Below are positions 1,624 to 23,443 of a DNA stretch of 28,565 bases, piece by piece. The position numbers and the translations under genes were made by a program. Origin of the DNA: a virus; IMG/VR virus record IMGVR_UViG_3300036770_001362, positions 1-28,565 of that record; one strand, given 5' to 3'. Within the stretch, counting starts at the first letter, position 1; every line of letters starts with the position of its first letter. The notes under the pieces were generated by a model that worked only from the letters and a program-made list of their open reading frames with translations, was not told where the DNA came from and made no database searches.

Positions 1624-1624
1624 A

Positions 1625-2956: not shown

Positions 2957-3099
2957 CGCACCGTCTCGTAAAAGCGATCCACCAGGGCCTCGGCATAACG
3001 AAACACACAATCAGCGTGTTCCTCGGGCGTCATGTCTTGGGGATCTATTGGTGCCAGGGCCAGCATGAATTTCAATAACAGCTCTTGCCTAGTTTCCAT
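2953..3099 (-). CDS. Small phage protein (48 aa), unknown function
   Basis: A 48-residue protein beginning METRQELLLKFML and ending DRFYETVR, mostly helical and slightly acidic. The open frame extends upstream to 3228, but that extension runs through the exonuclease gene and has poor composition, so I use the ATG at 3099, which overlaps the exonuclease stop by 11 bp. It is coupled by ATGA to the diphosphohydrolase gene. I do not recognise a family. It may be an accessory to the nucleotide-metabolism or recombination proteins on either side. Confidence 0.5.
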   Translation of the reverse strand: METRQELLLKFMLALAPIDPQDMTPEEHADCVFRYAEALVDRFYETVR

Positions 3100-3967
3100 C
3101 TCGACTCTCCTGATAATCCCGCCATTGCTGGCAGTAATTGTTGACTGGGCAAAAAGATTCGCACCGGGTCCGGGTGCCCAACCGGATCTCGATCTCATGA
3201 ACTTTTTCATCACAGGCTTTCTCGGCATCCTCCATGGTCTCGTAGACCTTGATGGCCCGAACGCCTCCCTTCTTCTTTAAAGCGTAGGTCGTGGGCTTCT
3301 CCCACATTTCCTCAGGCGTACAGGGTGGCAGCTCCTCATCGGTCTCCATGTGGAACTCACACTCGGAGTGCTTGCTGATCCGCTCGGAGATAAAGTCTTC
3401 CCGCTGCTGGTATGGCCACAGGTTGATGGGGATCTCTTTGACGGGGGACTGAGGATAGTCGGGGTTCTTGGCAGCCTCACGGCGAGACCAGTCACGGATG
3501 ATGGCCACGATCCCAATCGAATCCACGATCTTGAGCTTGCAGGTCTCCACAAGCCAAGCGTAGATGTTGAGCTGCTGCTCCCATTCGATCTTCTCGTTCA
3601 TCACCGCCCAGGCGCTGGTGGTCTTGTAATCCCGGATGCTGATGGTGTCAGGGCCGGTCACGATCTGTAGATCAATGGCCCCCGAGATCCTCCAACCATC
3701 AAAGGTGGTATGGAGCCTCTCCTCAACAATATGGTTGTCGTCCTTGCCATGCTCCAGGACCCCGTGAATGGCCGTGCCGAAGATCGACCAGACCATGTCG
3801 GACACGTCCTGCTCCAGCTCGTCCTCGAACTTCTTGGTCAGAGCAACGATCTTGGGACTGTTTAAAAGCTGCGTGGCAGACAGATGGGCCTTCCCCTTAG
3901 AATAGGTCGGGCGCTTCAAAACATTGACGAAGGTATCAGGGATACCGTGTTTGTTTGTAATCTTCAA
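3089..3967 (-). CDS. PD-(D/E)XK exonuclease (RecB/Cas4-like)
   Basis: A 292-aa nuclease. The PD-(D/E)XK core is visible in order: GTAIHGVLEH (H68), SGAIDLQ (D99), then IRDYKTT with D113 and K115, and the QLNIYAWL helix (residues 132-139) typical of RecB- and lambda-type exonucleases. Near the C-terminus C269, C273 and C279 (CESFCPVNNYC) resemble the three clustered iron-sulfur cysteines of Cas4/AddB-type nucleases; a fourth ligand could be C143 or another upstream Cys. The start is TTG, supported by a perfect AGGAGG five bases before it and by lack of a suitable ATG until residue 58. It is the first gene of the early operon and probably resects DNA ends for the ERF annealase. Confidence 0.85.
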   Translation of the reverse strand: MKITNKHGIPDTFVNVLKRPTYSKGKAHLSATQLLNSPKIVALTKKFEDELEQDVSDMVWSIFGTAIHGVLEHGKDDNHIVEERLHTTFDGWRISGAIDLQIVTGPDTISIRDYKTTSAWAVMNEKIEWEQQLNIYAWLVETCKLKIVDSIGIVAIIRDWSRREAAKNPDYPQSPVKEIPINLWPYQQREDFISERISKHSECEFHMETDEELPPCTPEEMWEKPTTYALKKKGGVRAIKVYETMEDAEKACDEKVHEIEIRLGTRTRCESFCPVNNYCQQWRDYQESRDGN

Positions 3968-3972
3968 TTGAA

Positions 3973-3978
3973 CCTCCT
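3973..3978 (-). promoter_or_regulatory. Strong Shine-Dalgarno deciding the TTG start of the exonuclease
   Basis: AGGAGG on the minus strand, spaced five bases from the TTG at 3967-3965. This perfect site is why I place the exonuclease start at a TTG rather than at an internal ATG. Confidence 0.8.
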
Positions 3979-3995
3979 AGCAGTAGACGGTTTGA

Positions 3996-4024
3996 ATTAT
4001 GAGCAATAAAACTTTTGATGTCAA
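3996..4024 (-). promoter_or_regulatory. Sigma70-type promoter of the early/recombination operon
   Basis: On the minus strand TTGACA (4024-4019) is followed by a 17-bp spacer and CATAAT (4001-3996). The -35 is a perfect match, the -10 matches five of six, and the spacing is optimal. Transcription would start near 3989 and give a leader of about 22 nt containing the AGGAGG. It fits expression by unmodified host RNA polymerase early in infection and would drive the whole left operon. Confidence 0.8.
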
Positions 4025-4029
4025 CAGAT

Positions 4030-4058
4030 GATTCACTCACCTATTCACCTGCTAATAT
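4030..4058 (+). promoter_or_regulatory. Extended -10 promoter for RusA, giving a leaderless mRNA
   Basis: On the plus strand TGC-TAATAT (4050-4058) is a good extended -10 element. The -35 at 4030-4035 (GATTCA) is weak, as is common with extended -10 promoters. The RusA ATG begins at 4065, six bases after the hexamer, where transcription would be expected to start; no Shine-Dalgarno precedes it. Two direct copies of ATTCAC (4031-4036 and 4043-4048), 12 bp apart, lie within this promoter and could bind a regulator. Confidence 0.5.
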
Positions 4059-4064
4059 ACCACC

Positions 4065-4490
4065 ATGATCACAAGCCTACATCTGCCTTATCCGCCCTCC
4101 GTTAACCATTACTGGGGAACCTCAGGCAAGCAGCGTTTCATTGGGAAGAAGGGAAAAGAGTTTCGCCAGGCGGTCGCAGAAGTCTGCCTGGATCTGCAAG
4201 TGTCCACTTTGGACACTCGTCTCTCGGTTCATGTTGCCATCTGGCCACCCGATAATCGCAAGCGGGACGTGGATAACGTGCTCAAGCCCTTGCTGGATGC
4301 GATGGAACATGCCGGGGTCTATGAGAACGACAGCCAGATTGATGAGCTCCACATCATCCGGCATCCTCCAATGAAAGGGGGCGCCTGTTCAGTGGTGCTC
4401 GTGCCGATCAGTCAGCGTAACGCTACTCTGCGTAGGCTTCCTTCCGAAACTGCTCAATCCCTTCCAGAACCTCCTGCTTCAGAACCATAA
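4065..4490 (+). CDS. rusA: RusA-like Holliday junction resolvase
   Basis: A 141-aa endodeoxyribonuclease of the RusA family, which cuts four-way DNA junctions as a metal-dependent dimer. The start LPYPPSVNHYW (residues 7-17) and the block RDVDNVLKPLLDAMEHAG are diagnostic; D68, D70, K74 and D89 correspond to the catalytic residues D70, D72, K76 and D91 of Escherichia coli RusA. The family core ends near residue 117. The last 24 residues are Pro/Ser-rich, and most of them are encoded opposite the end of the giant gene. It is the only plus-strand gene here, divergent from the exonuclease across a 97-bp gap. It would resolve junctions made by the exonuclease/ERF system or clear branched DNA before packaging. 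Confidence 0.92.
   Translation: MITSLHLPYPPSVNHYWGTSGKQRFIGKKGKEFRQAVAEVCLDLQVSTLDTRLSVHVAIWPPDNRKRDVDNVLKPLLDAMEHAGVYENDSQIDELHIIRHPPMKGGACSVVLVPISQRNATLRRLPSETAQSLPEPPASEP
4200..4216. repeat. Palindrome GTGTCCA-CTT-TGGACAC inside rusA
   Basis: A 7-bp inverted repeat around a 3-bp centre, within the RusA coding sequence. The core TGTCCA-N3-TGGACA is the same as in the three copies at 13753-13837 of the giant gene, but is read in a different frame. Confidence 0.6.
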
Positions 4491-7400
4491 GCTCCTGGAT
4501 CTCGGTCCGTTTGCGCTCGGCAGAGTAGCTGGGATCTTTGACCTCGGCAATAAACCGGATAGCGGAGTTGATGTCCTTCAGGTCATTGGCCATCTGGGTG
4601 GTGTAGTCGTAGTAGGCGATTAGGTTCGGATACCGCTGGAGATACCGGTCGGCCTCGGCAAAGTCACCCCGCTGGATGATCCGATTGAAGGTGTTGTACT
4701 TGCGATCCGTAGCATCCTTGAGGCGGTAGAAGAGATCCTCACGGCCCCTGGGCACCTCAGGCCGCAAGAAGGCACCGACCACTGGGAACTCTTTAATGGT
4801 CATCTCTGGCCGGAAGGAAGATCCCTCACCGATCACGTTGCTTGACCAGGCCACCATGGCGCCAGCTGTACCAAAGATCGACCGGACCAAGTGATCCGCT
4901 TCCATCGGGTTCAGAAGACGGTTGGCCTCCGTTCCAGTCAGACCACTAAGTAGCTTGGCAGCCTCGGACGTGCGCATGTCGTACTGCTGATAGGCGTCCA
5001 GGTTCTCCATGCCCCGTGGCGTGATGGGCCGGCTGGTGAAGAAGTTGTAGTCCAGGCTGATCTCAATGAAGGGCTTGACTGCTGATGGGATCGGAGTAGG
5101 ACCAAGCAGCAAGTCGATGGCCGACTCTTTGAGAGCCGTGCGCAGCCGGGCTGCATCCACCTCGTTTGCGGTTCCTTCGTTGATGATCTTGTTAACAACC
5201 AGCTCAGGGATAGCTTTGAAGAAGAAGGCGGCAGACGTATTCATCGGCAGGATCACGTCAGTGCCTGGGATGATCAGGTTACGAACCTTGGTCTGGTCAT
5301 CGAGCTTCTTGTAGTCATCGTCATCACCAACCAATAGGGTGTAAAGGATGGCCGTTCCAGCCAAGAGTGAGCCGGTAAATGCTAATTGCTTGAGCGCAGC
5401 CGCCCGATCCTTTCCTCGCAGGCCACCACCGATCAGTGCGTTGTAGAGCACGTCAATCGACTGGGCGTAGGCGTTCAAGAAGGGGACCGTCTTGACCAGA
5501 GCCTGGGCAAGTTGGCCAGAGCCGTGGCGCAGGAAGTTGATCACATTAGATGCCTGGTACATGGCCAGGGCCTCGTCACCCGTTTCTTTCATGACACGGT
5601 TGTAGATCGCAATACGCTGGGCCATGTCTGAGGAATCGCCCCAGTGGTCCAGGGCTTTCATCACATAGTCAAAGGTGTTGTTATTGATGATGCCGATCTG
5701 GCGCTTAACATCGGCCTCCGGTGTTCGAGCGGGCGAGTAAAAGCCACCGATACCAGCCGACCGGAGAATGCCTGCTGCCGGATCCGAATCACGGACCGCA
5801 TCAATAAATCCTTTGTAGACCCCCCCCATGAGAATGTCCGGGCGCTGGACGCCAGTAACCAGAGCAGCGGTCGGTGCATCTTTGAAGACCTGCTTGAGCT
5901 GGAAGACGGGCGAGAGGGTAATTGTTCGGCGGGTAAAGTTGGCGGCAGCGGCCAGAGGCTTCCACATTTCCATGCCCACGGTTTCCATGCCATAGGCTGC
6001 CTCAGCGATGAGAGGATCCTGAATCTCAACAATGTAGCGCCGACCGTTGTGGATGAAATCAAACCGGCCTTTCTCCCTGTCCACCTTCGGGAAGATCATG
6101 ATCTGGCCCTTGATGTCCCGGGTCGCATACTCGGAGACGATACGTTGAGCGGCGTATTGACGCAGGCCGTTCATAGTCATGCGCATGACGTTGCGGGTCA
6201 TGTTGTCGATCATGTTCTCGATCTCACGCTGAGTCTCGATCACCACGACATCGCCGGGCCTGTAGTCCACTTTGAGTCGGACCTCACCGTTGGCCGAAAC
6301 CTCGTAGTCCTCAGGTTTCAATCGGACATCGTTGAGCTTGACCGCATTCACACGGCCTGGTTGGATCCTAAAGACATCCTGGTTTTCTTCCACGATGAAG
6401 TCATTGATCACAGAAGGCTTGCCGGAACGGAAGAGTTTCTCCCGGCCAATGTTAGTGGCGCTTCGAGTGGTGGCCTGCAATGGCGAGTGGACATCTACCT
6501 CGTCATTCATGATTCGATACCAGGGAACATAGTCTTTGATCGAGGCCAGGGCGTTGTATCGAGCTTCACTCAGCAGGCCCACGTTGCGCCAGAACTTCAA
6601 GAGGTTTTGATTGACCGCAGTGAAGTTATCCATGATCTCTCTGAGCTCAGGGTGGGCTTCTTCTCGTGCGATGAACTCATCAATCGCTATGTCGCTCATG
6701 ACGACCTTTTCCTCGGCCAGCTGCTTCATGTCCTGGAAAGATTTCTTCTCATCTAAAAAGATCCGGAAAGTTTTGCGCAGCTCTCTCTTTGCTTTTTCAA
6801 TATCTTTATCAGTGGCTGTTGGATCTTTTTCAATCCTCTTAACCTCTTTCTTTTCGTTCTCATATTGCTCATTGATCTTGTCAAATGCTTTTTGGCGTTC
6901 AACTACCTCATCCTTAATGCTGCGGGATCGCTTGGCCTCCAGGTAGCCCTGGATTATGTTGGTGCCCAGCTGCTCACCAAGACGCTCTTTGATCTTTGCC
7001 TCGGCCTCGTAGACCTTGGTCATGTTCTTCTCTTTACGGACGGCGGTGTACTGGAGAGTCTTGTCGTTGAACTCCACACCACCCAGGAAGAGAGTCTGGG
7101 TTGCGATGTTGCCGCCACGGAGCATGTTGTCCAGGGCCAGTGATGCAGTGGCCAGACCTTCAGCTGTCTTAACCTGGCCGCTGTATCGGATCCGGTCAGC
7201 CTCGTTGATGCCGCTGCCGAACCAAACGAACTTGTTGCGCAGGTACATCACGCCACGGTTCAGAGAGTTAAACATCATGCGCAGAGCATCCGATGGATTC
7301 TCAGCCATGTTCTTAAACTCGTCCTTGGCAAAGGAAACACCATTGATCATCATCCGCTTGACCGGAGAGTGATCGAGCATGGGTGTATCAGAAAGCTGAT

Positions 7401-10400
7401 GACGGCGAACCAGCTCGGCATCTTCCTCAACGTTCTTCAGGAAGGTGAACTCGCCATTACCTGCACCCATGTAGGCAGCCAGTGATTCACGATCAAGTCG
7501 CTTCTTGGAGCCGGACATGATCTGGTCAAACACTTCATGCACCGCAAAGCCGTCATCAAATCCAAAGAATGATTTGAGCTTTTGAAAGATCTTGCGCACG
7601 GCCTTCTTGAATCGGTCCCATGGAACACCAAGACGCTGGGCCATGAGCTTCTCAGCATTGACTGCCCAGTACTCGGAGGCATTCACGAACTGATACAGAT
7701 CGAGCGATGGCAGTGACCTCTCAACCTCTTTGGCCGCCTTCTCTGATGGATTATTGTGGAAGGCAAGAACGTTCTCAAAGAACTTCTGAGCCTTCGGATC
7801 TTTGTTTTGCCGGATCGCCTTTTGCAGGGCATTCAGATATGAGTTGATAACAGCCTGGCGTTGCTTGCCGGTCATCATCTGCTCAAGAGTGTGGACCAGC
7901 TCGTGGCGAATGGTTGATGGCTCCCTTACACCTTTGGTTCCAGTGTAGAGATGAACGATCCTTCGAGTGGTTTCAAATGCACCAGCCGATGCCTTGAGGC
8001 CAAACGCCTTGCGCAGCTCCTCATCCCTGGCGTTGAACTCGGGCTTGATTGAAAGTCGCAGTCCTTCGAGTAGCTTGGGGTCATCCATGTAGACCGCTTG
8101 AATGACAGCAAACACGTCGGGATCAATGGCCTGCTCTTTGTAGGGTGCCGTGCCATCGAGAGCTGCTCGTGCCTGGCGCATGAAATTCTCAGCGGAATAA
8201 GTTGGCTGACGATCCAGGTCGATGTCCTCTTTGAGTGTCTTGGCAATCTCATTGAGATTAGTAAGCTGACGTTGGATGTCGAGGGTCGAGCCGTATTGGG
8301 CAACCTGCTTCATCAGAGATGCTTGTTTCTGACGAATCGAGGCGTAGTAGGCGATGCTCTCCTTACGCTCTTGATCTCGCTTGGCGCTATCCTCTTTGCG
8401 CAATCTGTCCAAAAAGGACATATCCGCCGGCTGCGTATCTCCAGCCACTTCGCTTGCATCAATGTTGTAGAGGAAGTCGGCCTTTGAACCAAACGTTGGC
8501 TTCTTGGCCAGGATCATGTTCCCGATCTGGATCACTTCCTCAGCTGCCACTACCGGTAGTGTGGTCCGGCGGTCATAGAAATAAGCATGGCGAGTGGGGT
8601 CGATGCCGATCTGAACGTAGTTTGGATCCTTGATCGCCCTCTGTGCCTCAGCAAATGCCTGCTCGGGAGTGGTGTTAACGTACTCACCTTCCATCGTCTG
8701 GAGTGCATCCTTGGCAGAGCCAGCTGCGATCTCTAGCGCCTTGAGCTGATTGCCCAAACCAAAGGTAACGTTCTTGGCCTTGGCCACGGAGCCATAACCA
8801 ATCACCTTGCCTGGTGCTGAGGCGGTGCGCTTCTGGTGGATGGACACCACAAAGACGCCCTTGCGATTGAATGCGGGGATGTCTAAGCGCAGGCCAACCT
8901 TGGTGCCGTTGGGGATCTCGGGATTGATCTGCTCCCGCTTCTTCACATCCAGGGCATCAAAGACTTGCTCGGACGTGGCAGGCTTCAAGGGCTCGGCGTA
9001 CAAAGGGATGGGCTTATAGATGTCCACCAGCTTGTTGTATTCCTCAGCCGTCATGGTGCCGGCCTTCACAGCCTGGGCAGCAGCGGTCAACTCAGGAGAT
9101 CGACCCGGGGGCAGCTTCTTACCTTTGACCTCCATGGCCTCGCCAATGTCCTTGGCTTCTTTAGGGCTGCCAAAGAGATCTGTCTGCATCTTCGAGGACA
9201 TGTCCTGATTGACCGGATCTTTCACTGGACCAGGGATCGTCTCAACGATAGTGGGCTTAACTTGCTTCAGGTACTGAACGAATGTCTCATCCGGCAGATA
9301 GCCTTGGCCTTTGAGACCCTGGTAGAACCTGCGCAGCGCAGCGCCAAGTCGAGCAAAGAACTTCTCGACCACGCCAACGGGCTTCTCGTCGGTGACAGCC
9401 CAGCGGGATACTTGATCGGCATACCACTCGCTAAATGATGACCAATACCTACGGGGATCTGCTCGGTCAAGCTCTCTTACTGTTGTAATGTCAACGCCAA
9501 TCTTTGTGGTTTGAGCCGTCGTCTTGGCCCTGAGCATTTCAATCGCTTCCCGGGCGGTCTTTCCTTGGCGTTGCGTTACCCACTTTTCATACGCTTCTTT
9601 GAGTTTGTCCTTGAGTTCCTGGGGGGCATTGTTGTAAGCCTCTCGTTCGTGAACGTGACCAAGCTCGTGGGCAAACATTTCTAACACAGCTGTTTTGCTT
9701 GTGGATTTCTCAAATAAGATGAAGTAAGAACCATCGGGCATGCGACGCATACGACCGCCAGTTAATGACTTTAATAGCCCAGAGCCAATCACCCGATGGG
9801 GGCCAGTAAAGTTATCTACGTTTTTCTTGGCGTCCTCAAAGGTAGACAGATAAATGTTGACATTGCCCAGGCCAAGCATGGACTTCCATTCTTTGAAGAT
9901 CTCGCCCGTGGATTGCTCAATGTCTGAAGACATGGCAATGCCATTCTTAAAAGTAATGAATGGATCGTCTTTGTGCTTCTGCTCGGCTTCTTTTTCAAGT
10001 TGATTCTTGATCTCAATCAGCTTTGCTTTGTATGGTAAGAATGGTGTGGCCGTTGTTACCTCAACGTCATTTTCGCTGTAACGGTTGCCCATAGTCACTG
10101 CATAAATCGGGGTGCCGGCCTCTTCACCGTAGCCACGAACCAGACCTATGTTGGTCTCTGGGTCAAAGTAAACGGGCTGGCCACCGACTTGCCGGGCTAC
10201 TGCACGAACACCCTTCTGCTCATCCTCGGTGCCCTTGAGCATGAACTCCCAGCCCTCATCTTCTTCTTTCTGCTGGCGTTTCCTGGCACTAATATCACCC
10301 TCTAGGGATGTGATCCAGTTTGAGTTATATCCAGGAGCCTTATTGAGAGCCTGTATTGCCTTGAGCATCGCTTTTCGTAAGACCTCTCCATCGCCCGTTT

Positions 10401-13400
10401 TGGTGGGCCAAAGGTCTTTCTTGCTGAGCATTTGAAGGCCGGTTTGCGATGTCTTTCGACCTTGAACAAAAATAGATTTTTGATCTCGTAATTGAAGCAG
10501 CCATTCTGTTGCGCTGATTCCTTTTGGCTTTATGTTGGCATCCTCTAAACGTTCAACGCCGACATCGTTATACGCCTCAAAGTAACTGCGAAGCACAGGC
10601 TCTACGTTAGCTTTCCAATAATCAAGATTTTTCTGTTGGCCGGCAGTGGGTGGCTGTTCAGTAGGTTTTGCCTCTTCCAATCCCGCAGCACGACGCATTA
10701 CCTCTTTGTCCCAGAACCGTCCGTCTTTCAGCTTAAACTGTCCAACCACCGGATCTAAAGACACAACCTTTTCTTTAAGCAGTCTATTTAATGCAGTTTG
10801 CGCCTGATCCTTTGTCAGACCAAACTGTTCCATAACCGAATCAATAAACTTGTCAGCAGCATTTTGTTCCCGTATCGCAAGAACATAAGCGCCAGTTAGC
10901 TTTTTATCTTTCTTCTTGGCGGTCAGTCGAGCAATAGACTTAAGACCCTCTTTCTCAGCAGCGATCTCTTTAGCTTTTTGTGCGCTCGGAGCTTCTACGT
11001 TCTCAGCCGCAAGGTTTGTGGTGCCGGTGTAGAACACATCCCAAGTTTGAACCTCAGCTGGCTTTTCTTCTTTCTTGGCTTTGGGCTTGACCTCGGCCAC
11101 TGAAACTCGTTCGATTAAATAACCGCCATCGCTATCTTGTGCCAGTACTCGGAATGTCTCTTTGCGACTTGTTATTTCTGTCGTGTCTTCTGGATCCGCA
11201 TCTTCGGGTAGATATTGTTCAGCGTCCTTCCGATCAAATGTCACCCACTCCAATTTACTTGTAGAAATTTTGCTGAGATCGGCATCTGTGACCACACGCA
11301 AGTCTTGATTCCCAAGCTCTTCTTGTTCATACCGAACAACATCTGCCGCTGTAACGTTGGGACCAAGGTCATCCATGAAGGACGGTCCAGTTCGATAGAT
11401 AGTGCGAGTTTGTACATCATCCTTTGGCTTCTCTGCCTCAGCCTCTTTGCGCTTGGAGATTCCCTTTATGCGATTAAGCAATTTCTGCGCTTCATCGTAA
11501 GCCTCTTGAAAGTCGCTTGAGGGCGCTTTGCCATAACTTATTTTTGCAATAGCTTCAGCTTGCTTACGAACAGCTCGAATATAGGCATCGGCCACGGGCT
11601 TACTAACGCCATACGCTTCTTGGACTTTCTTGGATGCATCATCAAAGTCTGCAACACCAAGCTGCCTCATGCGCTCAGTAATTGCATCTTCTAAGGGGGG
11701 AACATCAGTATCCAAGGTCGTCTTTGAATAGACGTAATTAACGTCTACCCTGCGATCTAAGGGCTTCAGACCCCTGGGTTGGAACGTTAACGTTATTGAC
11801 TCTGTTGGCGTGTTCTTGATGAGGATGGAATACTTGGCACCTCGTTTGGAATCAGTCTTGGTTGCCAACGACACAATGGCATCAAACTCAACACGCTTAA
11901 GGGTTGTATCACCATCCCATGTCTCTTCGGTAAGAATGGTGGTTTCATCCGGCGTTTCAAACCTTCTTTTTCCAGATCCACGGCTGATGCTTTCAACAAA
12001 CTCATCCAACACTTTTTGTGCAGGCCCAAGCTCCTCTGCCTCACGGGCATCTTCTGCCATCTGCTCAATAGGACTAGGCTCCGCTCCTACCCTGCGTGGG
12101 GCACGGGTGGGCTGCTCGGTAATCCCCTTGGTGCCAAATAGATCACCGCTTGGAGCTGCTGCCCTGACTGTAGGTGCACTGGGCGGTGGCGCAAGCTCAA
12201 ACGTCTCACGCTTCTGATCAGCGATCTTGCGTTCTGCCTCAGCTGCTGCCCTGGCTGCTTCCTCAGCTTCGAGTCGCTCACGCTCAGCCTCGGCTTCACC
12301 GGAGAGCTCTCGGCGTTGAAGCTCTGCTAACTCTTCTGGGGTTTGGCCTGTGAGCTCGAATCCCTGATCTTGTGGAGGTACTGCTGCTGGGCTGGGTTCA
12401 GCTTGCCTTTCAACATCGCTCGGAGCAGGCCCTGGCCTTTGGGCTGCTGCCACATCTTCCGTCCTTGTGGGCTCATCACCTCTCCTCATTCGTTCAACAA
12501 TCTCACGTCGTTCCATCTTTGGTTCGACACCAAAAAGTCCCTCCTCGGGTCGGAGAGATTCGTTGTAAGCGGTGGTTGCCGCATTACGCAGTGCTTCAAT
12601 CGCACCTTTGTTGCTGCGTGGATTGGCCGCAAAGAGCTCCACGATAATCCTGGTGTCTGGGTCAACCGTCATGTCTACCTGGGTAGCGATCTCTCGCATC
12701 TTCAGGCCACGACGTTTGCCGCTAATGATGATCTTGGCCGCATCAGTCACGATGTCCCGGATGTCCAGATCGCCAGCGCCTTCTAATTGAGCCATTTGCG
12801 GTGCGACCTGCGCCAGGGCATTGACCACGAGCTTAGCCTCGGGATCATCAGTTTGTGCAAACATAGCGATGAGATCATCATCGTTGTAAGCCTGAGCAAA
12901 GATGGCGTTCTCTAAACGCTGTCGTGCTTGCTTGGTTGGTAGTCCTCGATCAACCAGCTTGGCACGTTCTTCAATCGGCTGGGCATTGATGAACTGACCG
13001 AGAGAGGCATTGGTAACCTCACCGTCCTCACCAAACTCAAGCGCCTCAAGATCCACACGATTGAGATCGTTCCGGGCCTGTTCAACCGGGGAGAGCTCCA
13101 ACATGGAGGACATGTTCAGCTCATCACCAATGTCTCTTGTCAATCCCTCTTGCGGCATCACTCGAACCAGGATTGGCTTTTTCATGCTGGCGATTACATC
13201 AGGGCTAACCCCGTGCATGCTGGCGTCCCCCTCCATCTGCTCTACATACGGAGTAGCTGTCCCTCGATTAAACGCCTCTTGCAGTCCAGTGATTCGGCCG
13301 TTACCAGCAATTGCCCTGGGGCCAGGAACCTCTTTGTTGCCATAACGTGTATCCGGTGTCCCACGCATATCGTTGGACGTGATGACTTCATCGGCCTCGA

Positions 13401-15207
13401 CTACGGCGTATTGGATTGGAATCTTGCGCCCACGGGCCGTGGTTACCACGTCCTCACGGCCAAGCTGCTCAGGAGCAAAGTCGCCGTAGGCAATGATCGG
13501 TGCGCCATCGGGTGTTCGTGAAAAACCAGCCCGGCCATAGTCAGGCTCACTGGCAATTTTTTCCATTTGCTCCAGGGATGCGGTGCTTGATCGGTCCCGA
13601 TTCTGGAGAACAAACTCTCCCTTTTTGGCTTCTTGTGCAGCCTGGCGCTCCCTGCGCTCCTCGGCTTTCTGTGCCCGTATCTGGTCCTCAACGGTCTGGC
13701 CGGTCGGCGTAACCGGCTCTGTGAATATGTCACCAAACGAGGGCTGGGGTATCTGTCCAGGTTGGACACTTGGCTCAACCGGGGGTGGTAACTGTCCAGC
13801 TTGGACACTTGGGGCTAACTGTCCAGGTTGGACACTTAGCTGCTCAATCTGACCAAGGATCTCTTGCTCACGGCGGTCCAGCTCTTGGAAGGCCGGATCG
13901 TCTGGGGTGAGCATCGGGTCCATCCGGGCAGCACGAACCTGAGCCAGCTGATCCGTCAGTGACTTGGTCTGGGGTGTGGCCGGTGCTTGCTGGGCGATCT
14001 GCTCAACCGTGGGCGGAACCTCAATGACTTCTTCCTCTTCCACGACTTGCTCGACTGGAGCGGGTGTAACCGGGGGTTGGACCGCAGCAGGCGCTGGGGG
14101 CAACGGAGGTTGCGGCTGAGGCTGTACGGCCACCGGGGCAGCAGGAGGAGCTGCGGCAAGTCTTGCCTGGAACTCGGCCTCTTCCTCGGGCGTTAGTGCT
14201 TCTTCTTCTGGAATCACAGCGCCAGGCGGTACACCAGCAGGCGGTGGAGTGGGTTCGGTTTGAGGCTCTGCCTCGGGTTGCTGCGCTTGTTGTGCAGCAC
14301 GTCTTTCCAGGTAACGCCCTGGAGGTGCAAGAACGCCACCAAGCACGGCACCGCCAATGAAACTTTCTAAATACTCATCCCGGGCTGCCTGGTCGGTGAT
14401 ATTAAGACCGGCCTGTAACCGCTCAAGGGATTGTTGGGCTGCTTCGGTCAAACCCTCAACCGTCATTGTTTTACCTGTGGCAAGGGCGTAATCGGCTGCC
14501 ACATCTTTAAGGGCTTTGCTGGCAATTAATTGAGCTTCTTTTTCTGTGAGCGTCTTGCCTGCTTGACCAAAGACGCCACGAATGAATGGCATCATCCTGA
14601 AGCTAACAACATTTAATGCCGCCTGGGGAACCGCAGCTAATGCCGCATTCCCAAGATCCGTCTCTCCAATACTCTTGCCACGAGGATTATCTTCGGTTGG
14701 CTCCATTTGTCGCAGGAGGTTTGTTCCGGTGAACTGGGCTCCTGATGCAAGGCCAGCAGCACCTAACGCAGCAACCGTAGCTGCTGGACCAGTAAAGGGG
14801 AGAGTAAGAGCTGCTCCAGCAGCCGCTACAGGCAAAGCCATGAATGGCAAAGATTGACCAAGAAGCTCAAGAGTTTTAGTAACAGGAGCCTCTAAAAAGC
14901 CTTCTTCGGTTGGCTTAAATACTCGTTGTTGATAAGCCTGCTCTTCTTCAATAGCTTTTTGAGCCGCCGCTTCATCCATGAGGCCGGTTCGACCAGCTAA
15001 GGCATACCCTGCTTCTTGAGCTAATGAGACTCCAGACTTAAGCGCAGGCACGAACACATCACCAGATTCTGGCCCAAAGCCAATACGCTGGGAGAAATCC
15101 TCAAACGGTATGTCGGAGTAAAACCGCCGGTGTAATCCCCTGGCTAGATCTTCATCCGAAATGTCGTTGTACTGAGGATACTGCTTACGAAAATCCTCAA
15201 GACGCAT
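4423..15207 (-). CDS. Giant polyvalent virion protein (3,594 aa) with ParB-like and two zincin domains
   Basis: One uninterrupted frame of 3,594 residues. Order: N-terminal helical region starting MRLEDFRKQYPQYNDIS; hydrophobic Ala/Gly segment about 105-165; Pro/Glu-rich linker about 305-520; DdrB-like ParB domain about 540-885 with AIAGNGRITGL (AGNGR at 634-638); Glu/Ala coiled coil about 950-1005; several unassigned domains; zincin 1 with HELGH (1847-1851) and third ligand E1927; a domain ending near 2240; zincin 2 with HELVH (2435-2439) and third ligand E2512; a Lys/Glu coiled coil near 2750-2840; and a C-terminal LPD38-like region with a membrane segment about 3270-3292. This layout is that of phage polyvalent proteins, which are thought to be packaged and injected with DNA. 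It ends the chain of internal virion genes, starts 1 nt after the preceding gene, and overlaps rusA tail to tail. Function is inferred. Confidence 0.85.
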   Translation of the reverse strand: MRLEDFRKQYPQYNDISDEDLARGLHRRFYSDIPFEDFSQRIGFGPESGDVFVPALKSGVSLAQEAGYALAGRTGLMDEAAAQKAIEEEQAYQQRVFKPTEEGFLEAPVTKTLELLGQSLPFMALPVAAAGAALTLPFTGPAATVAALGAAGLASGAQFTGTNLLRQMEPTEDNPRGKSIGETDLGNAALAAVPQAALNVVSFRMMPFIRGVFGQAGKTLTEKEAQLIASKALKDVAADYALATGKTMTVEGLTEAAQQSLERLQAGLNITDQAARDEYLESFIGGAVLGGVLAPPGRYLERRAAQQAQQPEAEPQTEPTPPPAGVPPGAVIPEEEALTPEEEAEFQARLAAAPPAAPVAVQPQPQPPLPPAPAAVQPPVTPAPVEQVVEEEEVIEVPPTVEQIAQQAPATPQTKSLTDQLAQVRAARMDPMLTPDDPAFQELDRREQEILGQIEQLSVQPGQLAPSVQAGQLPPPVEPSVQPGQIPQPSFGDIFTEPVTPTGQTVEDQIRAQKAEERRERQAAQEAKKGEFVLQNRDRSSTASLEQMEKIASEPDYGRAGFSRTPDGAPIIAYGDFAPEQLGREDVVTTARGRKIPIQYAVVEADEVITSNDMRGTPDTRYGNKEVPGPRAIAGNGRITGLQEAFNRGTATPYVEQMEGDASMHGVSPDVIASMKKPILVRVMPQEGLTRDIGDELNMSSMLELSPVEQARNDLNRVDLEALEFGEDGEVTNASLGQFINAQPIEERAKLVDRGLPTKQARQRLENAIFAQAYNDDDLIAMFAQTDDPEAKLVVNALAQVAPQMAQLEGAGDLDIRDIVTDAAKIIISGKRRGLKMREIATQVDMTVDPDTRIIVELFAANPRSNKGAIEALRNAATTAYNESLRPEEGLFGVEPKMERREIVERMRRGDEPTRTEDVAAAQRPGPAPSDVERQAEPSPAAVPPQDQGFELTGQTPEELAELQRRELSGEAEAERERLEAEEAARAAAEAERKIADQKRETFELAPPPSAPTVRAAAPSGDLFGTKGITEQPTRAPRRVGAEPSPIEQMAEDAREAEELGPAQKVLDEFVESISRGSGKRRFETPDETTILTEETWDGDTTLKRVEFDAIVSLATKTDSKRGAKYSILIKNTPTESITLTFQPRGLKPLDRRVDVNYVYSKTTLDTDVPPLEDAITERMRQLGVADFDDASKKVQEAYGVSKPVADAYIRAVRKQAEAIAKISYGKAPSSDFQEAYDEAQKLLNRIKGISKRKEAEAEKPKDDVQTRTIYRTGPSFMDDLGPNVTAADVVRYEQEELGNQDLRVVTDADLSKISTSKLEWVTFDRKDAEQYLPEDADPEDTTEITSRKETFRVLAQDSDGGYLIERVSVAEVKPKAKKEEKPAEVQTWDVFYTGTTNLAAENVEAPSAQKAKEIAAEKEGLKSIARLTAKKKDKKLTGAYVLAIREQNAADKFIDSVMEQFGLTKDQAQTALNRLLKEKVVSLDPVVGQFKLKDGRFWDKEVMRRAAGLEEAKPTEQPPTAGQQKNLDYWKANVEPVLRSYFEAYNDVGVERLEDANIKPKGISATEWLLQLRDQKSIFVQGRKTSQTGLQMLSKKDLWPTKTGDGEVLRKAMLKAIQALNKAPGYNSNWITSLEGDISARKRQQKEEDEGWEFMLKGTEDEQKGVRAVARQVGGQPVYFDPETNIGLVRGYGEEAGTPIYAVTMGNRYSENDVEVTTATPFLPYKAKLIEIKNQLEKEAEQKHKDDPFITFKNGIAMSSDIEQSTGEIFKEWKSMLGLGNVNIYLSTFEDAKKNVDNFTGPHRVIGSGLLKSLTGGRMRRMPDGSYFILFEKSTSKTAVLEMFAHELGHVHEREAYNNAPQELKDKLKEAYEKWVTQRQGKTAREAIEMLRAKTTAQTTKIGVDITTVRELDRADPRRYWSSFSEWYADQVSRWAVTDEKPVGVVEKFFARLGAALRRFYQGLKGQGYLPDETFVQYLKQVKPTIVETIPGPVKDPVNQDMSSKMQTDLFGSPKEAKDIGEAMEVKGKKLPPGRSPELTAAAQAVKAGTMTAEEYNKLVDIYKPIPLYAEPLKPATSEQVFDALDVKKREQINPEIPNGTKVGLRLDIPAFNRKGVFVVSIHQKRTASAPGKVIGYGSVAKAKNVTFGLGNQLKALEIAAGSAKDALQTMEGEYVNTTPEQAFAEAQRAIKDPNYVQIGIDPTRHAYFYDRRTTLPVVAAEEVIQIGNMILAKKPTFGSKADFLYNIDASEVAGDTQPADMSFLDRLRKEDSAKRDQERKESIAYYASIRQKQASLMKQVAQYGSTLDIQRQLTNLNEIAKTLKEDIDLDRQPTYSAENFMRQARAALDGTAPYKEQAIDPDVFAVIQAVYMDDPKLLEGLRLSIKPEFNARDEELRKAFGLKASAGAFETTRRIVHLYTGTKGVREPSTIRHELVHTLEQMMTGKQRQAVINSYLNALQKAIRQNKDPKAQKFFENVLAFHNNPSEKAAKEVERSLPSLDLYQFVNASEYWAVNAEKLMAQRLGVPWDRFKKAVRKIFQKLKSFFGFDDGFAVHEVFDQIMSGSKKRLDRESLAAYMGAGNGEFTFLKNVEEDAELVRRHQLSDTPMLDHSPVKRMMINGVSFAKDEFKNMAENPSDALRMMFNSLNRGVMYLRNKFVWFGSGINEADRIRYSGQVKTAEGLATASLALDNMLRGGNIATQTLFLGGVEFNDKTLQYTAVRKEKNMTKVYEAEAKIKERLGEQLGTNIIQGYLEAKRSRSIKDEVVERQKAFDKINEQYENEKKEVKRIEKDPTATDKDIEKAKRELRKTFRIFLDEKKSFQDMKQLAEEKVVMSDIAIDEFIAREEAHPELREIMDNFTAVNQNLLKFWRNVGLLSEARYNALASIKDYVPWYRIMNDEVDVHSPLQATTRSATNIGREKLFRSGKPSVINDFIVEENQDVFRIQPGRVNAVKLNDVRLKPEDYEVSANGEVRLKVDYRPGDVVVIETQREIENMIDNMTRNVMRMTMNGLRQYAAQRIVSEYATRDIKGQIMIFPKVDREKGRFDFIHNGRRYIVEIQDPLIAEAAYGMETVGMEMWKPLAAAANFTRRTITLSPVFQLKQVFKDAPTAALVTGVQRPDILMGGVYKGFIDAVRDSDPAAGILRSAGIGGFYSPARTPEADVKRQIGIINNNTFDYVMKALDHWGDSSDMAQRIAIYNRVMKETGDEALAMYQASNVINFLRHGSGQLAQALVKTVPFLNAYAQSIDVLYNALIGGGLRGKDRAAALKQLAFTGSLLAGTAILYTLLVGDDDDYKKLDDQTKVRNLIIPGTDVILPMNTSAAFFFKAIPELVVNKIINEGTANEVDAARLRTALKESAIDLLLGPTPIPSAVKPFIEISLDYNFFTSRPITPRGMENLDAYQQYDMRTSEAAKLLSGLTGTEANRLLNPMEADHLVRSIFGTAGAMVAWSSNVIGEGSSFRPEMTIKEFPVVGAFLRPEVPRGREDLFYRLKDATDRKYNTFNRIIQRGDFAEADRYLQRYPNLIAYYDYTTQMANDLKDINSAIRFIAEVKDPSYSAERKRTEIQELMVLKQEVLEGIEQFRKEAYAE
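8548..8561. repeat. 14-bp perfect palindrome CACTACCGGTAGTG, copy 2
   Basis: Identical to the copy in ERF. Here it is read in a different frame, as Leu-Pro-Val-Val, so protein similarity does not explain the match. A possible protein-binding site or modification target. Confidence 0.7.
13753..13837. repeat. Three 19-bp repeats with a TGTCCA-N3-TGGACA palindrome core
   Basis: Three near-identical 19-bp units on the plus strand, CTGTCCAGGTTGGACACTT at 13753-13771, 13792-13810 and 13819-13837; the middle one has GCT for GGT in the centre. Each encodes SVQPGQ or SVQAGQ in the Pro-rich linker of the giant protein. Unit spacing is irregular (39 then 27 bp start to start, both multiples of three), so the reading frame is kept. 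They may have arisen by local duplication. Confidence 0.75.
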
Positions 15208-15208
15208 T

Positions 15209-16585
15209 TTAAGGTGTCCTTAAACCAAGGGGATCGTTGCCTGCTCCACTAGCCATGCCGCCGGCACCAGCACCCAGTCGATAACGAACGTACTCCTCAA
15301 CCGTGTTGATACCCTGTTGGCGTAACCGCATGCGATCCATAGGCTTCATGTCGCCCCACTCTTTTTCCACAATGGCCGGAGTTAAAGCGCCGGTCTTGGA
15401 GACGCCAAAGTATTTCTCAGCAAACTCCTGGCGCTTCGGATCGCCACTGAGGTAATCCTCTCGCATCTGTTCGTAGGTTGAGGATCGTGTCTGAGCTTCA
15501 ACGATCTGACGGGCCCGGTCATCTGACATAAGTTTGTCGGCCAGCTGAGCCTTGCGATCAGCCATCTTGTCACTGGCTGCGTTGTACCGATCCACAGCCG
15601 ACTGATAATCCTTGCTGGCTGCACTGGCCACACCCATGTTGATCTCATTCTGAGCCTGCATGAGCTGACGGGAGGCATTGGTTAACTCTCGTTCTGTCTT
15701 CTGTAAATCCTTGATGTCCGAGGCAAACCCCTGCATCGCCTGCGTTGCGCCTTTGCCGATGTTTTCGAATGCGTTCGGAGATGTCCCCGCCATGATGGCA
15801 AGACCAGCTTCGATGATCCGCATGTTCTTCGCTTCGTCACGCCTACCACCTAATGCTTCTTTCTCAGCTGCGATTTCTGCGGCTTGTTGAGCTGCAAGAT
15901 CAAGATTGACCCCAGCCCTTTTGAAAAACTCTTGCGTTGAATCCACGTAACTCATCTTATCGCCAGGCGCAGGAGCTCCTCCTTGCTTGCCATAAAGACG
16001 CTCGTACATGGTTTCTGTTTGACTTAGCACCTCGTCAACATCCAAAGGTTTGAATCCACGAGCTGGCTGTGTTGCGCCCAATCCCTGGTCGGCAGTCAAG
16101 CTCACCGTCTCGGTTTCCTCGATCTCCGGAGCAATTCCCATGTCTTGGGTCTGGCCCATGGGGCGTCCCTGGAGAGTCTGTAGCCGCATGGGAAGCTGGC
16201 CGGTCTGCTGATAAAGGATCCGCTCTTCCTCGGTCATCTGGGCTGTGACATCCACGAGGCCCTGGTTCTGGAAGCGAGGCACATAGCCACCACCTTCAAA
16301 GGCTACGATCCCACCGCCTGCCATGCTGGGTTCAAAGTTAATGGGAGCCTGGTCAATCCCGCCGGTGATCGCCTCGGCCTGACCCATAACCTGGTCGGCA
16401 ATCGTCATCTGCGGCTGCTGCATCCCAGCCTGAGCCATCTTCATGCGCTTCTCAAGCTGAACCTTTTCCTCTAAGAGGGGAATACCAATGTAGGCCGGGA
16501 TGGTCCGGTTCTCTAAGGCATCTTCAAGCTGCCGAATGGAGAGCTTTTCTGCCTGGGCAACACGCCCTAGTCCTTGCCCGATCAT
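15209..16585 (-). CDS. Putative internal virion protein with coiled coil (458 aa)
   Basis: A 458-aa protein. The N-terminal 60 residues are helical (SIRQLEDALENRTIPAYIG), then come Gln/Met-rich stretches and a glycine motif, MAGGGIVAFEGGG (about residues 88-100), of the kind seen in other presumed internal proteins of aquatic phages. The middle (about 215-380) is predicted from its heptad pattern to be long helices or coiled coil, with AEIAAEKEALGGRRDEAKN and SRQLMQAQNEINM. The C-terminus is Gly-rich. No enzyme motif is visible. ATGA overlap with the Gln-rich gene before it and a 1-nt gap to the giant gene suggest the products are made together, probably as parts of an ejection apparatus. Confidence 0.65.
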   Translation of the reverse strand: MIGQGLGRVAQAEKLSIRQLEDALENRTIPAYIGIPLLEEKVQLEKRMKMAQAGMQQPQMTIADQVMGQAEAITGGIDQAPINFEPSMAGGGIVAFEGGGYVPRFQNQGLVDVTAQMTEEERILYQQTGQLPMRLQTLQGRPMGQTQDMGIAPEIEETETVSLTADQGLGATQPARGFKPLDVDEVLSQTETMYERLYGKQGGAPAPGDKMSYVDSTQEFFKRAGVNLDLAAQQAAEIAAEKEALGGRRDEAKNMRIIEAGLAIMAGTSPNAFENIGKGATQAMQGFASDIKDLQKTERELTNASRQLMQAQNEINMGVASAASKDYQSAVDRYNAASDKMADRKAQLADKLMSDDRARQIVEAQTRSSTYEQMREDYLSGDPKRQEFAEKYFGVSKTGALTPAIVEKEWGDMKPMDRMRLRQQGINTVEEYVRYRLGAGAGGMASGAGNDPLGLRTP

Positions 16586-17832
16586 GCTGCTTTCCTTCCC
16601 TTGATCTTGTTCATAAGACCAACGTCAATTCCTTCCTCAATCTTACCGCCTTCTTTCTTGCCCAGCTGGCTGAAGCCATAGGCTGCCGTGCCCAGGCCGG
16701 CAAGTTGAGAAATGGGGCTTGGTTGGCCGCCATACTGCTCGACCGTAGTCGTGGGTGTGGCGTAGCCTCGGAGAAGACCGCTGAATTGAGACAGACGCTG
16801 ATACGGGGATTCTTGCGACAAGGCGTAGTTCTGAATGGCCTGGTCAATGATCGCCTGGCGTTGTGCCTGAGGAATCGAGCCCATCTGTTGCTGGAACTCC
16901 AGACGGGCAAGATCGGACGCCTGTTGGGTCTGACCCAATGCACCAAGATTCTGTCCAAGGTTGCCAGCCATACCGTAACCAGTCTGTGCTGCACCAAGGC
17001 CTTGAAGGCCAGCCTGCGCACCCTGGATGCCCAAGCCAGCGCCCTGCATACCAGATGTAACTCCAAACTGTTGAGCTTGGACCGCCTTATCATAAGCCGA
17101 CTGAAGGCCCTGCGTTTGGATGTCGCTAAGCTGCTTATTAAGAGCTGCTTCTCGCTGAGTTTGAGCCAGGGTCTGACGGGCACCACCGTAGGTGCCTTGA
17201 CGGGCGGCCTGAAGATTCGCACCGAGCTGAGCTCTTTGAGCATCCTCAATTGCCTTGGTCTTAGCCATCTCTGTCACACCTTGTTGATAGGGTGACATGT
17301 AGGCCTGAACCGCACGGGGGTCTGTGGCCATCTGGCCGTAGGAGAATCCGATGCCCTGACCGTACAAACCAGACTGTTGTCCCTGCTGGCCATATTGATA
17401 GGCGGGAAACGTGGATTCCAAAGCGCCTTGACCGGCTGCACCCATCAGTTGGCCGGCAGCTCCAAATGCGCCAGGACGCTCAAGATTGGCTGTCTCTGTA
17501 AAGACTTGTTCCTGTTGAGGAGTAAACCCAGCTACGTATTGGGTTGGATCCTGACTATAAGGTTGGAACGGTTTAACTCCAGTGATGTCATAGATCGTCT
17601 CTGTACCGCCATCTAGTTTGCTGACCTGCCTGGGTGTGGTCTGAAAGTATTCCTGTGTCGCTGCACCCAAAAGAGCTTCAGTCTGGGGACGAAGCCACTC
17701 CGGGATGTTGGACTGGGTAACCGTGCTTTGCGTGGTGCCACCACCGCCGCCGCCCTCAAGCGTCATGCCGGATCGACCGTTGCGGGGCTGGAAAGCCCGT
17801 TCGGGGAGCATTGAAAAGTGGTCGTATTTCAT
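16582..17832 (-). CDS. Gln/Ala/Gly-rich putative internal virion protein (416 aa)
   Basis: A 416-aa protein of low complexity. After an N-terminal linker with six glycines in a row comes IPEWLRPQTEALLGAATQ, then long Gln/Ala/Gly segments. The block AYMSPYQQGVTEMAKTKA followed by ANLQAARQGTYGGARQ looks like the conserved helical core seen in virion proteins of aquatic phages. Approximate repeats of GLGIQGAQAGLQGLGAAQTG type occur at about 255-290. The C-terminus has GKKEGGKIEEGIDVG, echoing the Gly-rich motif of the 458-aa and 287-aa neighbours. No catalytic motif. ATGA overlaps on both sides tie it to the GNAT-like gene and the coiled-coil gene. I infer a structural or ejected protein; the family is not named. 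Confidence 0.6.
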   Translation of the reverse strand: MKYDHFSMLPERAFQPRNGRSGMTLEGGGGGGTTQSTVTQSNIPEWLRPQTEALLGAATQEYFQTTPRQVSKLDGGTETIYDITGVKPFQPYSQDPTQYVAGFTPQQEQVFTETANLERPGAFGAAGQLMGAAGQGALESTFPAYQYGQQGQQSGLYGQGIGFSYGQMATDPRAVQAYMSPYQQGVTEMAKTKAIEDAQRAQLGANLQAARQGTYGGARQTLAQTQREAALNKQLSDIQTQGLQSAYDKAVQAQQFGVTSGMQGAGLGIQGAQAGLQGLGAAQTGYGMAGNLGQNLGALGQTQQASDLARLEFQQQMGSIPQAQRQAIIDQAIQNYALSQESPYQRLSQFSGLLRGYATPTTTVEQYGGQPSPISQLAGLGTAAYGFSQLGKKEGGKIEEGIDVGLMNKIKGRKAA

Positions 17833-20751: not shown

Positions 20752-21518
20752 GCAATGGTCACCGTGGGTGCAACACCTGCAATAGCCAGTCGATCCGGTA
20801 GTGTTGGGACGAACTTGGCTGGTAGTGCGGACACAAAACTGATTGTCACGATGACCGAGGCGATCTCTGGCCGTGTGGGGGATGTCCCGGCGGCGTAGCT
20901 CTCAATCACCACATCTGCCCCATCGGACCACCAGGCAAACTCCAGATACTCACCGTTTGTGACCGTGAAGATCCCCGAGATATTAGCTGTGACGTGCGAG
21001 TAAACGGACACGCTTTTCCTGGCCGGGATGTCAAACCGGGTGTTACTCAGGGGATAGTTGACCCCACTGTTCTTGGCCCAGAGCTCAAACTCTTGAAGGG
21101 CGTTTCCCCGGTTGGCAAATTGGAACCGGGCAGTTACTAGGTACTGTCCGGGATAGGCAAAGGTAATCCTGGAGTTACTCTCAACGTTGATGCCATCGCT
21201 AAAGATGACCTGATTGAGCGTGACGATATTCTCGGATGTTATCCCTGCACTGGTCTGGTCCTGGTTGGACATGAGAAGTGCATAAGGAACCTCAAGCCCC
21301 CGTCCAAACCCGGACAGTAGCCCACCAGTCAGTCTGGAGCCAGAGAACTCGCCCCCGATAAAGTTGTCTGCTGTGTACGACTCGGCCTGGTTCGGTGTTT
21401 TGGAATCTAGGAGGTTGAAGTAAAGCCTGAGCGCCCGGACTAACTCGTCCATCTGGCCCGGATCGTAATCCTGTTTGGGTAACGGGAGTGCCGGAGCCCG
21501 GAACTTGACCATCCCCAT
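20748..21518 (-). CDS. Structural protein with C1q/TNF-like beta-sandwich (256 aa)
   Basis: A 256-aa protein. The first 45 residues are helical (MDELVRALRLYFNLLDS), then a Gly-rich turn region (NFIGGEFSGSRLTGGLLSG). Residues about 105-245 alternate strands like the C1q/TNF jelly-roll found in phage fibre and decoration proteins: SRITFAYPGQYLVTARFQF, then ELWAKNSGV, then VTNGEYLEFAWWSDGADVVI. The start forms TAATG with the stop of the nozzle gene; a second Met two codons later is possible. It sits directly after the tail nozzle gene, so a tail- or fibre-associated trimer is likely. Exact role not known. Confidence 0.65.
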   Translation of the reverse strand: MGMVKFRAPALPLPKQDYDPGQMDELVRALRLYFNLLDSKTPNQAESYTADNFIGGEFSGSRLTGGLLSGFGRGLEVPYALLMSNQDQTSAGITSENIVTLNQVIFSDGINVESNSRITFAYPGQYLVTARFQFANRGNALQEFELWAKNSGVNYPLSNTRFDIPARKSVSVYSHVTANISGIFTVTNGEYLEFAWWSDGADVVIESYAAGTSPTRPEIASVIVTISFVSALPAKFVPTLPDRLAIAGVAPTVTIA

Positions 21519-23443
21519 TAGCGTTGTCCGTCTGGCCTGGCGTCAACCCGTGGTGATCCGAGCTGCCACTGAACGTTTAACCCATCGGAGCTTACCCGCA
21601 TGGCCATCTGGCGTCCACGAGCCCGGATAAAGACCTGCTCGGTGTAGACCCCTACGGATGTTTCAATCACCGGTTTTTCGTTCAGTGCGTTATTGGTGTA
21701 AGAGCTGCCGGGGAAGTTTCTGGCCCGGATGCCGAACGTGACCTCTGCGTCATCCGCCGTGGTCGTGTTGAAGTTGACGTCAGGAATGATCCGCTTGGTC
21801 AGCATCAATTGGTTACCATCCCCAATATCAAAGTCGGAGGACTGGATAAAGCACTCCATGGGACTCTCGTCATCATTGAGCCCCACCTCATGGGTGTATA
21901 AGACGCCCGTGTTGGAGCCCTCTGGTGTGGTGGCTGCAATCGGGAAGTCCCTTGAGGCCACATCCAGCCACGCCGTTCGCACCAGGTTACCGTAGTACCA
22001 GATCTGATTGAGGTGATTGAAGATTACATACCGGTCATTCCAGTCTGAGTTGGCGCTGGGGTAAAACCACCAGATCTCCGTAAAGCCCTCGTTCGTCCCA
22101 CAGACTACCTGATCCGCCTGGTCAAAGTTAATGTCCTTGAACACGTACTCTCGTAAGGTGCATGGAAGGGTCTGGACACGGCCATCGTAGAAGTAAAACT
22201 TATCGGATCCCATCCAGTAAAGGACGTTGTTGGCCGTAATGGCCCCCCGTGGACCGATAATTGAAATGTTGTCGGCAAGTTCCTGCAAGCCAAAGACATC
22301 CGTTGTGCCCAGATACTGAAAGCTGTAAACGTGCGTATCGGTCAGAACAATTGTTTCCTGGCGAGTTGGGATTGCCCGGACGATCTTGGATCCCCTGGAC
22401 ACTCGCAAGAAGCCAGCTGAGTTTAGAGATGTTGGCTCCCAGACATTAGGCTGGTCTTGAGAGGCCCAGCGAATCAGTAGCGGATCAAAGTCATCAGCTG
22501 CCCCAGCATAAGGTTGGCATCCAAACGCTAAGAGATGCTTATCGTTCTGAGAGATAAGGATCTGCATTGCTGAAGTAGGAACCGCTGAGGGTGCCACTCC
22601 GTTTAACGTGAGGCCCGACAACAACACAGCTCGTGTGGCCAGTGCGCTTGTTGGAACCACAGACGATCCACGTTCCCAATAATAGATGGGACCACCCTGG
22701 CTCTTACCGTTCGTGTCCACCTCCGACCGGATGTTCATCACCAGGTCGTTGTCAAAGTTATCAAAGAACCAATCCCTTTGCGGGAGGAAGACGGGCGTGT
22801 TGGATGACAGGCCCCAGGAACTAATTCCCCATCCACCCGTTCCCCAACCATAACCAGCCGTGGTTGCCGCCAGGCCAGGGTTAATTTGGCAGGCGATACT
22901 AATGGAGGATCCGCCCCCGGCTGAAACCGTGGAAGTGGCCAAAGTGGACACTTGGATCGAAAACGAGTCGGAATCAATCAGGGTAATGACATGCTCGGTG
23001 TTGATCTCCGCATCGGGAATCCCACCCACATTCCCAGTCACCCCAGAGATCGTGACATAGGCTCCATCATCACACCCATGGCCAGTGACATTCACAATCA
23101 CCGTTGCTGACCCGGTGGTCGTCTCAATGCAATTGTCAGTGGCCGGGCTGACCAGCGTGGTACGCAAAGGAGTGATGTCGTAAAAAACCGATCCTGCCTC
23201 GATATAAACCTTGAGATTGGTACCGACCGCCAGGAAGTTATCTTGAAACGAAGTAACCCAGTTCCAGAGCTGCCGGCAGACGCCAAGAAACGTGTTGGGA
23301 GATGTCTTAGTCCAGCCACCCAATTTCTGTGGAAACCCGGAAAAGAATCGAATCTTGTCGCACTCAAACCAACCACCCTCGTTTGAGTAATTGGTGGTAT
23401 CCCGATTGATCCCAGGGCGCAACTGAATCTTCTGTAAGGGCAT
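21518..23443 (-). CDS. Tail nozzle / packaged-DNA stabilisation protein (P22 gp10-like)
   Basis: A 641-aa protein. It opens with LQLRPGINRD-like residues (IQLRPGINRDTTNYSNEGG, WFECDKIRFFSGFPQKLGGW), the usual start of phage stabilisation proteins, and later has GPRGAITANNVLYWMGSDKF and IWYYGNLVRTAWLD, repeated beta segments fitting a propeller-like nozzle. Residues about 105-180 look like an inserted Ig-like beta domain (VTGHGCDDGAYVTISGVTG). P22 gp10 is 472 aa; the insert and extra C-terminal strands explain the greater length. In podoviruses this protein forms the lower tail tube and seals packaged DNA. It lies between the endolysin gene (3-bp gap) and the C1q-like gene (TAATG overlap). Confidence 0.75.
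   Translation of the reverse strand: MPLQKIQLRPGINRDTTNYSNEGGWFECDKIRFFSGFPQKLGGWTKTSPNTFLGVCRQLWNWVTSFQDNFLAVGTNLKVYIEAGSVFYDITPLRTTLVSPATDNCIETTTGSATVIVNVTGHGCDDGAYVTISGVTGNVGGIPDAEINTEHVITLIDSDSFSIQVSTLATSTVSAGGGSSISIACQINPGLAATTAGYGWGTGGWGISSWGLSSNTPVFLPQRDWFFDNFDNDLVMNIRSEVDTNGKSQGGPIYYWERGSSVVPTSALATRAVLLSGLTLNGVAPSAVPTSAMQILISQNDKHLLAFGCQPYAGAADDFDPLLIRWASQDQPNVWEPTSLNSAGFLRVSRGSKIVRAIPTRQETIVLTDTHVYSFQYLGTTDVFGLQELADNISIIGPRGAITANNVLYWMGSDKFYFYDGRVQTLPCTLREYVFKDINFDQADQVVCGTNEGFTEIWWFYPSANSDWNDRYVIFNHLNQIWYYGNLVRTAWLDVASRDFPIAATTPEGSNTGVLYTHEVGLNDDESPMECFIQSSDFDIGDGNQLMLTKRIIPDVNFNTTTADDAEVTFGIRARNFPGSSYTNNALNEKPVIETSVGVYTEQVFIRARGRQMAMRVSSDGLNVQWQLGSPRVDARPDGQR

Follow-up and report, generated by a model that had tools for sequence, protein, structure and literature searches.

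Polyvalent proteins are a main route by which phages bring enzymes into a cell along with their DNA, and the zincin is their commonest domain, with a role that is still unproven. Such proteins carry between one and five zincin-like metallopeptidases (MPTases) interspersed with other domains and sorted into 12 clades, and about 8% have more than one (Iyer et al., 2017, PMC5512222). The same study argued that zincins serve to process polyvalent proteins and that P1 DdrB undergoes processing. The closest analogue studied by experiment is the virion RNA polymerase (vRNAP, gp50) of phage N4, in which a zincin-type C1 region is followed by a helical C2 region and which is ejected along with the DNA (PMC12633501). 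This protein is packaged uncleaved (PMC5512222) and has been purified at full length, with its C-terminal region autoinhibiting the polymerase (PMC12633501). A DarB-like giant protein, other than the one described here, was detected in virions of phage JC1 by mass spectrometry (PMC9144972).

Architecture and genomic context of the giant protein

The window, by which we refer to the whole stretch of DNA that was analysed, is a virus contig of 28,565 bases. It contains a gene for a polyvalent protein of the ejection type (4423..15207, minus strand), which encodes 3,594 residues in a single open frame and exceeds the Pfam gathering scores for ddrB-ParB and LPD38. From the N- to the C-terminus, the protein consists of an N-terminal segment (residues 1-55; 15043..15207, minus), a DdrB-like ParB domain (residues 533-683; 13159..13611, minus; PF18763, E 5.4e-14), a first zincin module termed Z1, a domain termed D3, a second zincin module termed Z2 and a C-terminal block (residues 2990-3594; 4426..6240, minus) that includes LPD38 (residues 3296-3477; PF18857, E 2.3e-22). 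In tblastn searches, the N-terminal segment matches large proteins of Vibrio, Thalassomonas, Shewanella, Ruegeria and Pelagibacter phages (down to E 2e-11); the C-terminal region also matches large proteins of Vibrio, Thalassomonas and Shewanella phages, with several records matching at both ends. Several domains of unrelated activity are thus assembled in one polypeptide (ddrB-ParB, LPD38, two zincin-type domains and D3), and the protein resembles those of Iyer et al. in being giant and multidomain, in carrying DdrB-ParB, LPD38 and zincins with HExxH and a downstream Glu and in its late-gene context.

This context is defined by a gene for a DNA ejection protein (16582..17832, minus; phrog_4287, E 1e-11), which lies on the same strand and is separated from the polyvalent gene by a single gene (15209-16585), and by a virion structural protein of the packaged-DNA-stabilization type (21518..23443, minus). 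Latter was assigned by phrog_3287 (E 1.1e-59) and by tblastn matches to genes named 'stabilization protein', and has relatives in Pelagibacter, Roseobacter, Planktothrix and other phages. Upstream, PHROGs also identify an endolysin, together with proteins of the tail fibre or virion. The polyvalent gene belongs to one gene run with ejection and virion structural genes, as expected of a phage-type polyvalent protein, and its classification as virion-type in the initial annotation is backed by ddrB-ParB, LPD38 and the nearby ejection gene. Judged from this gene context, the 3,594-residue protein is probably packed into the phage particle and then ejected into the bacterium.

Other genes of the window deserve a brief description. 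A 669-residue protein (25391-27400, minus) contains three related stretches that match virion or baseplate PHROGs and resemble repeated LamG/concanavalin-type domains, possibly with a role in attachment. Among the virion genes, a protein of 143 residues (17829-18260, minus) appears GNAT-like by eye and has no Pfam match; in phage JC1 and in a Microcystis phage, the virion genes include annotated acetyltransferases. A small protein (19494-19811, minus) holds two DUF4214 stretches, and positions 1-4490 contain a cluster of recombination genes encoding RusA (plus strand), a PD-(D/E)XK nuclease and ERF.

Two zincin-type domains with conserved active-site motifs

Z1 covers residues 1655-2000 (9208..10245, minus) and contains the motif HELGH at residues 1847-1851 (9655..9669, minus), followed by SEWYADQ starting at residue 1926 (9412..9432, minus), whose E1927 is the proposed third ligand. 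Z2 covers residues 2270-2585 (7453..8400, minus), with HELVH at residues 2435-2439 (7891..7905, minus) and SEYWAVN starting at residue 2511 (7657..7677, minus), in which E2512 would take the equivalent position in zinc binding. All four motifs are located at exactly the residues where they had been annotated initially, and the reported spacing holds, with the Glu following the first His of the motif by 80 residues in Z1 and 77 in Z2. The described stretches rich in Phe, Lys and Arg that come after the ligand Glu are equally present, with FFARLGAALRRFY at residue 1950 and IFQKLKSFFGF at residue 2540. These two HExxH motifs are the only ones in the whole protein, and among 5,000 composition shuffles, 4,952 contained none, 47 contained one and a single shuffle contained two.

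The conservation of both motifs was investigated in relatives from viral contigs, which were obtained by searches with each domain separately and afterwards with alignments (A1, 32 sequences, for Z1; A2, 51 sequences, for Z2). Among 170 distinct related open reading frames (ORFs), HExxH is intact in all 83 Z1 and all 87 Z2 domains, and the proposed ligand is Glu in 83/83 cases in Z1, whereas in Z2 it is Glu in 85 of 88 cases and Asp in the other 3. HExxH and the downstream Glu are invariant or nearly so across dozens of relatives whose identity is 33-60%. Since most relatives were retrieved by peptide patterns holding one of the two motifs, only the other motif provides an independent test in each sequence. 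With identity down to about 27%, the motifs persist in the Z2 of Erwinia phage Pavtok and the Z1 of an Acinetobacter contig, and a Z1-like domain of a Microcystis phage keeps HELGH followed by FQEW. The Pavtok and Microcystis phage domains were found by whole-domain tblastn, and both retain HExxH and the Glu motif. The conserved surroundings of the site differ between the domains, with HExGHxH..EWYADQ in Z1 and RHExxHxxEQMM..SEYWAVNAE in Z2. As judged from their sequences, the HExxH/Glu pattern in Z1 and Z2 is more than a product of chance.

Structure prediction points in the same direction. In AlphaFold2 models of Z1 (mean pLDDT 79.6) and Z2 (mean pLDDT 79.5), an initial helix and a pair of strands are followed by a long helix bearing HExxH (model residues 184-202 and 161-175, respectively) and by a later helix with the Glu near its start (271-284 and 241-257), a predicted secondary structure that gives a zincin core for both domains. 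The initial proposal that the protein has two distinct domains of zincin type, in each of which HExxH is followed by a Glu close to where a later helix begins, is supported. A Foldseek search of the PDB yielded no match at E 1e-3 for either model; weak matches include collagenase H for Z1 (4arf, probability 0.85, E 0.16) and, for Z2, lethal factor as well as PprI. Among models of viral proteins, the matches of Z2 include large polyvalent and MuF-type proteins. Sequence searches for relatives of solved structure returned none for Z1 or Z2. In Pfam, neither domain reaches any gathering cut-off, including those of MPTase-PolyVal (PF18818), LPD1 (PF18796) and other zincins, which appears to set Z1 and Z2 apart from published polyvalent MPTases; several Z1 relatives show weak matches to Pfam metallopeptidases and Z2 relatives nothing consistent. 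Since published polyvalent proteins contain up to five zincins (PMC5512222), the presence of two in one protein is not new. What is new, as judged against Pfam, are the Z1 and Z2 families, which are without a Pfam model.

Known phages provide further points of comparison. The DarB-like giant protein of Erwinia phages Pavtok, PEp14 and Stean contains a homologue of Z2 at 26-27% identity, which in Pavtok keeps HEILH and SEYWAVNA. It spans about 5,000 residues with methylase, helicase and transglycosylase annotations and lacks Z1, whereas the window protein contains it. When a phage with virion proteomics was sought that contains a relative of Z2, only Erwinia phages were found, and a search for prophage hosts by Z1 in bacterial genomes returned one distant match, the Acinetobacter contig. 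The Z1-like domain of Microcystis phage Mae-Yong1326-1 resides in a protein of 2,441 residues, where a second HExxH (HEWAH) is found just before an LPD1 match. This protein thus also has two different zincin-type motifs, the second of which is of the LPD1 type and not Z2.

Comparison with N4 vRNAP and the proposed processing role

N4 vRNAP carries an HExxH motif at residues 2228-2232 and a Glu at position 2310, a spacing similar to that in Z1 and Z2, and HELVH and E2310 are invariant in 39 sequences. The Glu is followed by a helix-like stretch rich in Lys, Ile and Trp and then by about 1,100 C-terminal residues, and N4 vRNAP and the window protein thus have in common a zincin that precedes a C-terminal part of roughly 1,000 residues. 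In profile comparisons, Z2 is closer to the N4 C1 zincin than Z1: the hhalign score of 33.7 for Z2 (probability 41%, P 2.8e-4) is weak but above the null tiles, while the probability for Z1 is 14.5%. Unlike N4 vRNAP, which has a single zincin, the window protein contains two and has no RNA polymerase. This layout and the weak, above-null link between Z2 and the N4 zincin are new, and latter points to a laboratory phage of solved structure as a system for the question of processing. We also considered the LPD38 block as a homologue of N4 C2, which by eye is suggestive and is not significant with either a single sequence or a 44-sequence profile.

Among the relatives, an LPD38-type block is found at the extreme C-terminus in 52 of the 80 Z2 proteins and 35 of the 73 Z1 proteins, ending a median of 4 and 10 residues before the C-terminus, respectively. 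The zincin precedes this block by a median of 338 residues for Z2 and 412 for Z1. Z1 and Z2 take each other's place ahead of this shared C-terminal block and rarely combine, which offers a natural comparison for a role in the processing of the carrier.

In the reading that we prefer, to which we assign a probability of roughly 50%, the window encodes a packaged polyvalent ejection protein with two zincins of different families and intact active-site motifs, which were joined by recombination and would serve in regulated self-processing. Processing of the polypeptide would proceed during packaging or after ejection and would separate the C-terminal block from the ParB domain and further modules, which would thereby be freed, with Z1 and Z2 cutting different junctions of the carrier. 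Such regulated processing is favoured by the analogy to the N4 layout and by the published argument on P1 DdrB (PMC5512222). The fact that N4 vRNAP is packaged uncleaved and purified at full length counts against this reading, in particular against a constitutively self-cleaving enzyme. In the window protein, no cleavage site was identified, which also speaks against it, as do the absence of a PDB match at E 1e-3 and the lack of significant similarity between the C-terminal block and N4 C2.

The substrates could instead reside in the bacterium, with one or both zincins acting as effectors that cut host defence or regulatory proteins after ejection and the two domains directed at two different substrates. 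This option is named in PMC5512222 and agrees with the strong constraint on active-site residues and with the conserved residues around the site, which differ between Z1 and Z2. Since roughly half of the proteins or more have Z1 or Z2 ahead of a shared C-terminal block, which fits a function linked to the carrier at least equally well, we consider host effectors to be possible but on the unlikely side.

Rather unlikely as well is a mainly structural or regulatory function of the zincin folds in docking, unfolding during ejection or inhibition of a neighbouring enzyme, with no cutting of peptides. The autoinhibition exerted by the N4 C-terminal region, which contains a related zincin, and the recovery of that protein at full length (PMC12633501) speak for such a function, whereas the retention of HExxH and the ligand Glu in nearly all relatives exceeds a purely structural need. 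Regulated self-processing could also be timed in two steps, with Z2 acting at packaging or ejection, Z1 freeing upstream cargo in the host and the pairing gained repeatedly by phages richer in cargo, a scheme that we regard as doubtful.

Modular history of the Z1 and Z2 pair

The distribution of the two domains is nearly exclusive. In the 170 related ORFs, 82 contain only Z1, 86 only Z2 and two contain both, namely the window protein and L046 (of which L047 is an identical copy). Searches of whole records, some of which may be partial contigs, detected Z2 in none of 31 contigs with Z1 and Z1 in none of 49 contigs with Z2. In a tree of Z2, the window protein forms a sister pair with L040 (support 0.998), a protein that has a further HExxH (HELAHTGS) but no Z1, while L046 forms such a pair with L054 (0.993). 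In a tree of Z1, the window protein and L046 are part of one clade (0.972), whose other members contain Z1 only, but reside in separate subclades, L046 within one of five members (0.988). Because the two double proteins are in both trees placed among single-zincin proteins and not as sisters, the pair was built by the joining of modules, apparently twice. This evidence of repeated joining of Z1 and Z2 is new.

The similarity between the profiles of Z1 and Z2 is weak and centred on HExxH (score 31.7, P 5.7e-4), compared to scores of 33.7 between Z2 and N4 and 28.8 between Z1 and N4, with maxima of null tiles at 20.4 for Z1, 22.3 for Z2 and 25.5 for N4. The real Z1-Z2 score is also attained by 3 of 100 shuffles in which the HExxH block alone is left intact. 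The two domains are thus at most distant members of one superfamily. The helix rich in Phe, Lys and Arg after the ligand Glu has a counterpart in N4 and is therefore no mark of a shared duplication. The initial interpretation of Z1 and Z2 as a tandem duplicate that has since diverged, which could draw on the HExxH-centred similarity and the similar Glu spacing, does not stand and is highly improbable given their co-occurrence in only 2 of 170 ORFs, the non-sister position of the double proteins and a mutual likeness that does not exceed that of Z2 to N4 and is equalled in a few HExxH-block shuffles.

Other combinations of HExxH-containing segments are found among the relatives. Z1 is accompanied by an extra HEVQHAIQ segment in L008, L017 and L021, and Z2, in proteins without Z1, by an extra HE[LI]AHTGS segment in L040 (residue 2034), L051 (residue 1731) and L188, which in L040 and L051 is located upstream of Z2. 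In L043 and L184, Z2 is combined with an N4-like HELIHAAT.

A separate observation concerns D3, the conserved domain between Z1 and Z2 (residues 2008-2262; 8422..9186, minus; alignment A3 of 21). The copy in the window matches no Pfam family and the copies of its relatives match weakly. With its conserved motifs RxDI, VxxIH and DPxRHxYFYD and its tandem arrangement in L010, L019, L043 and L183, D3 is a candidate for a new polyvalent domain.
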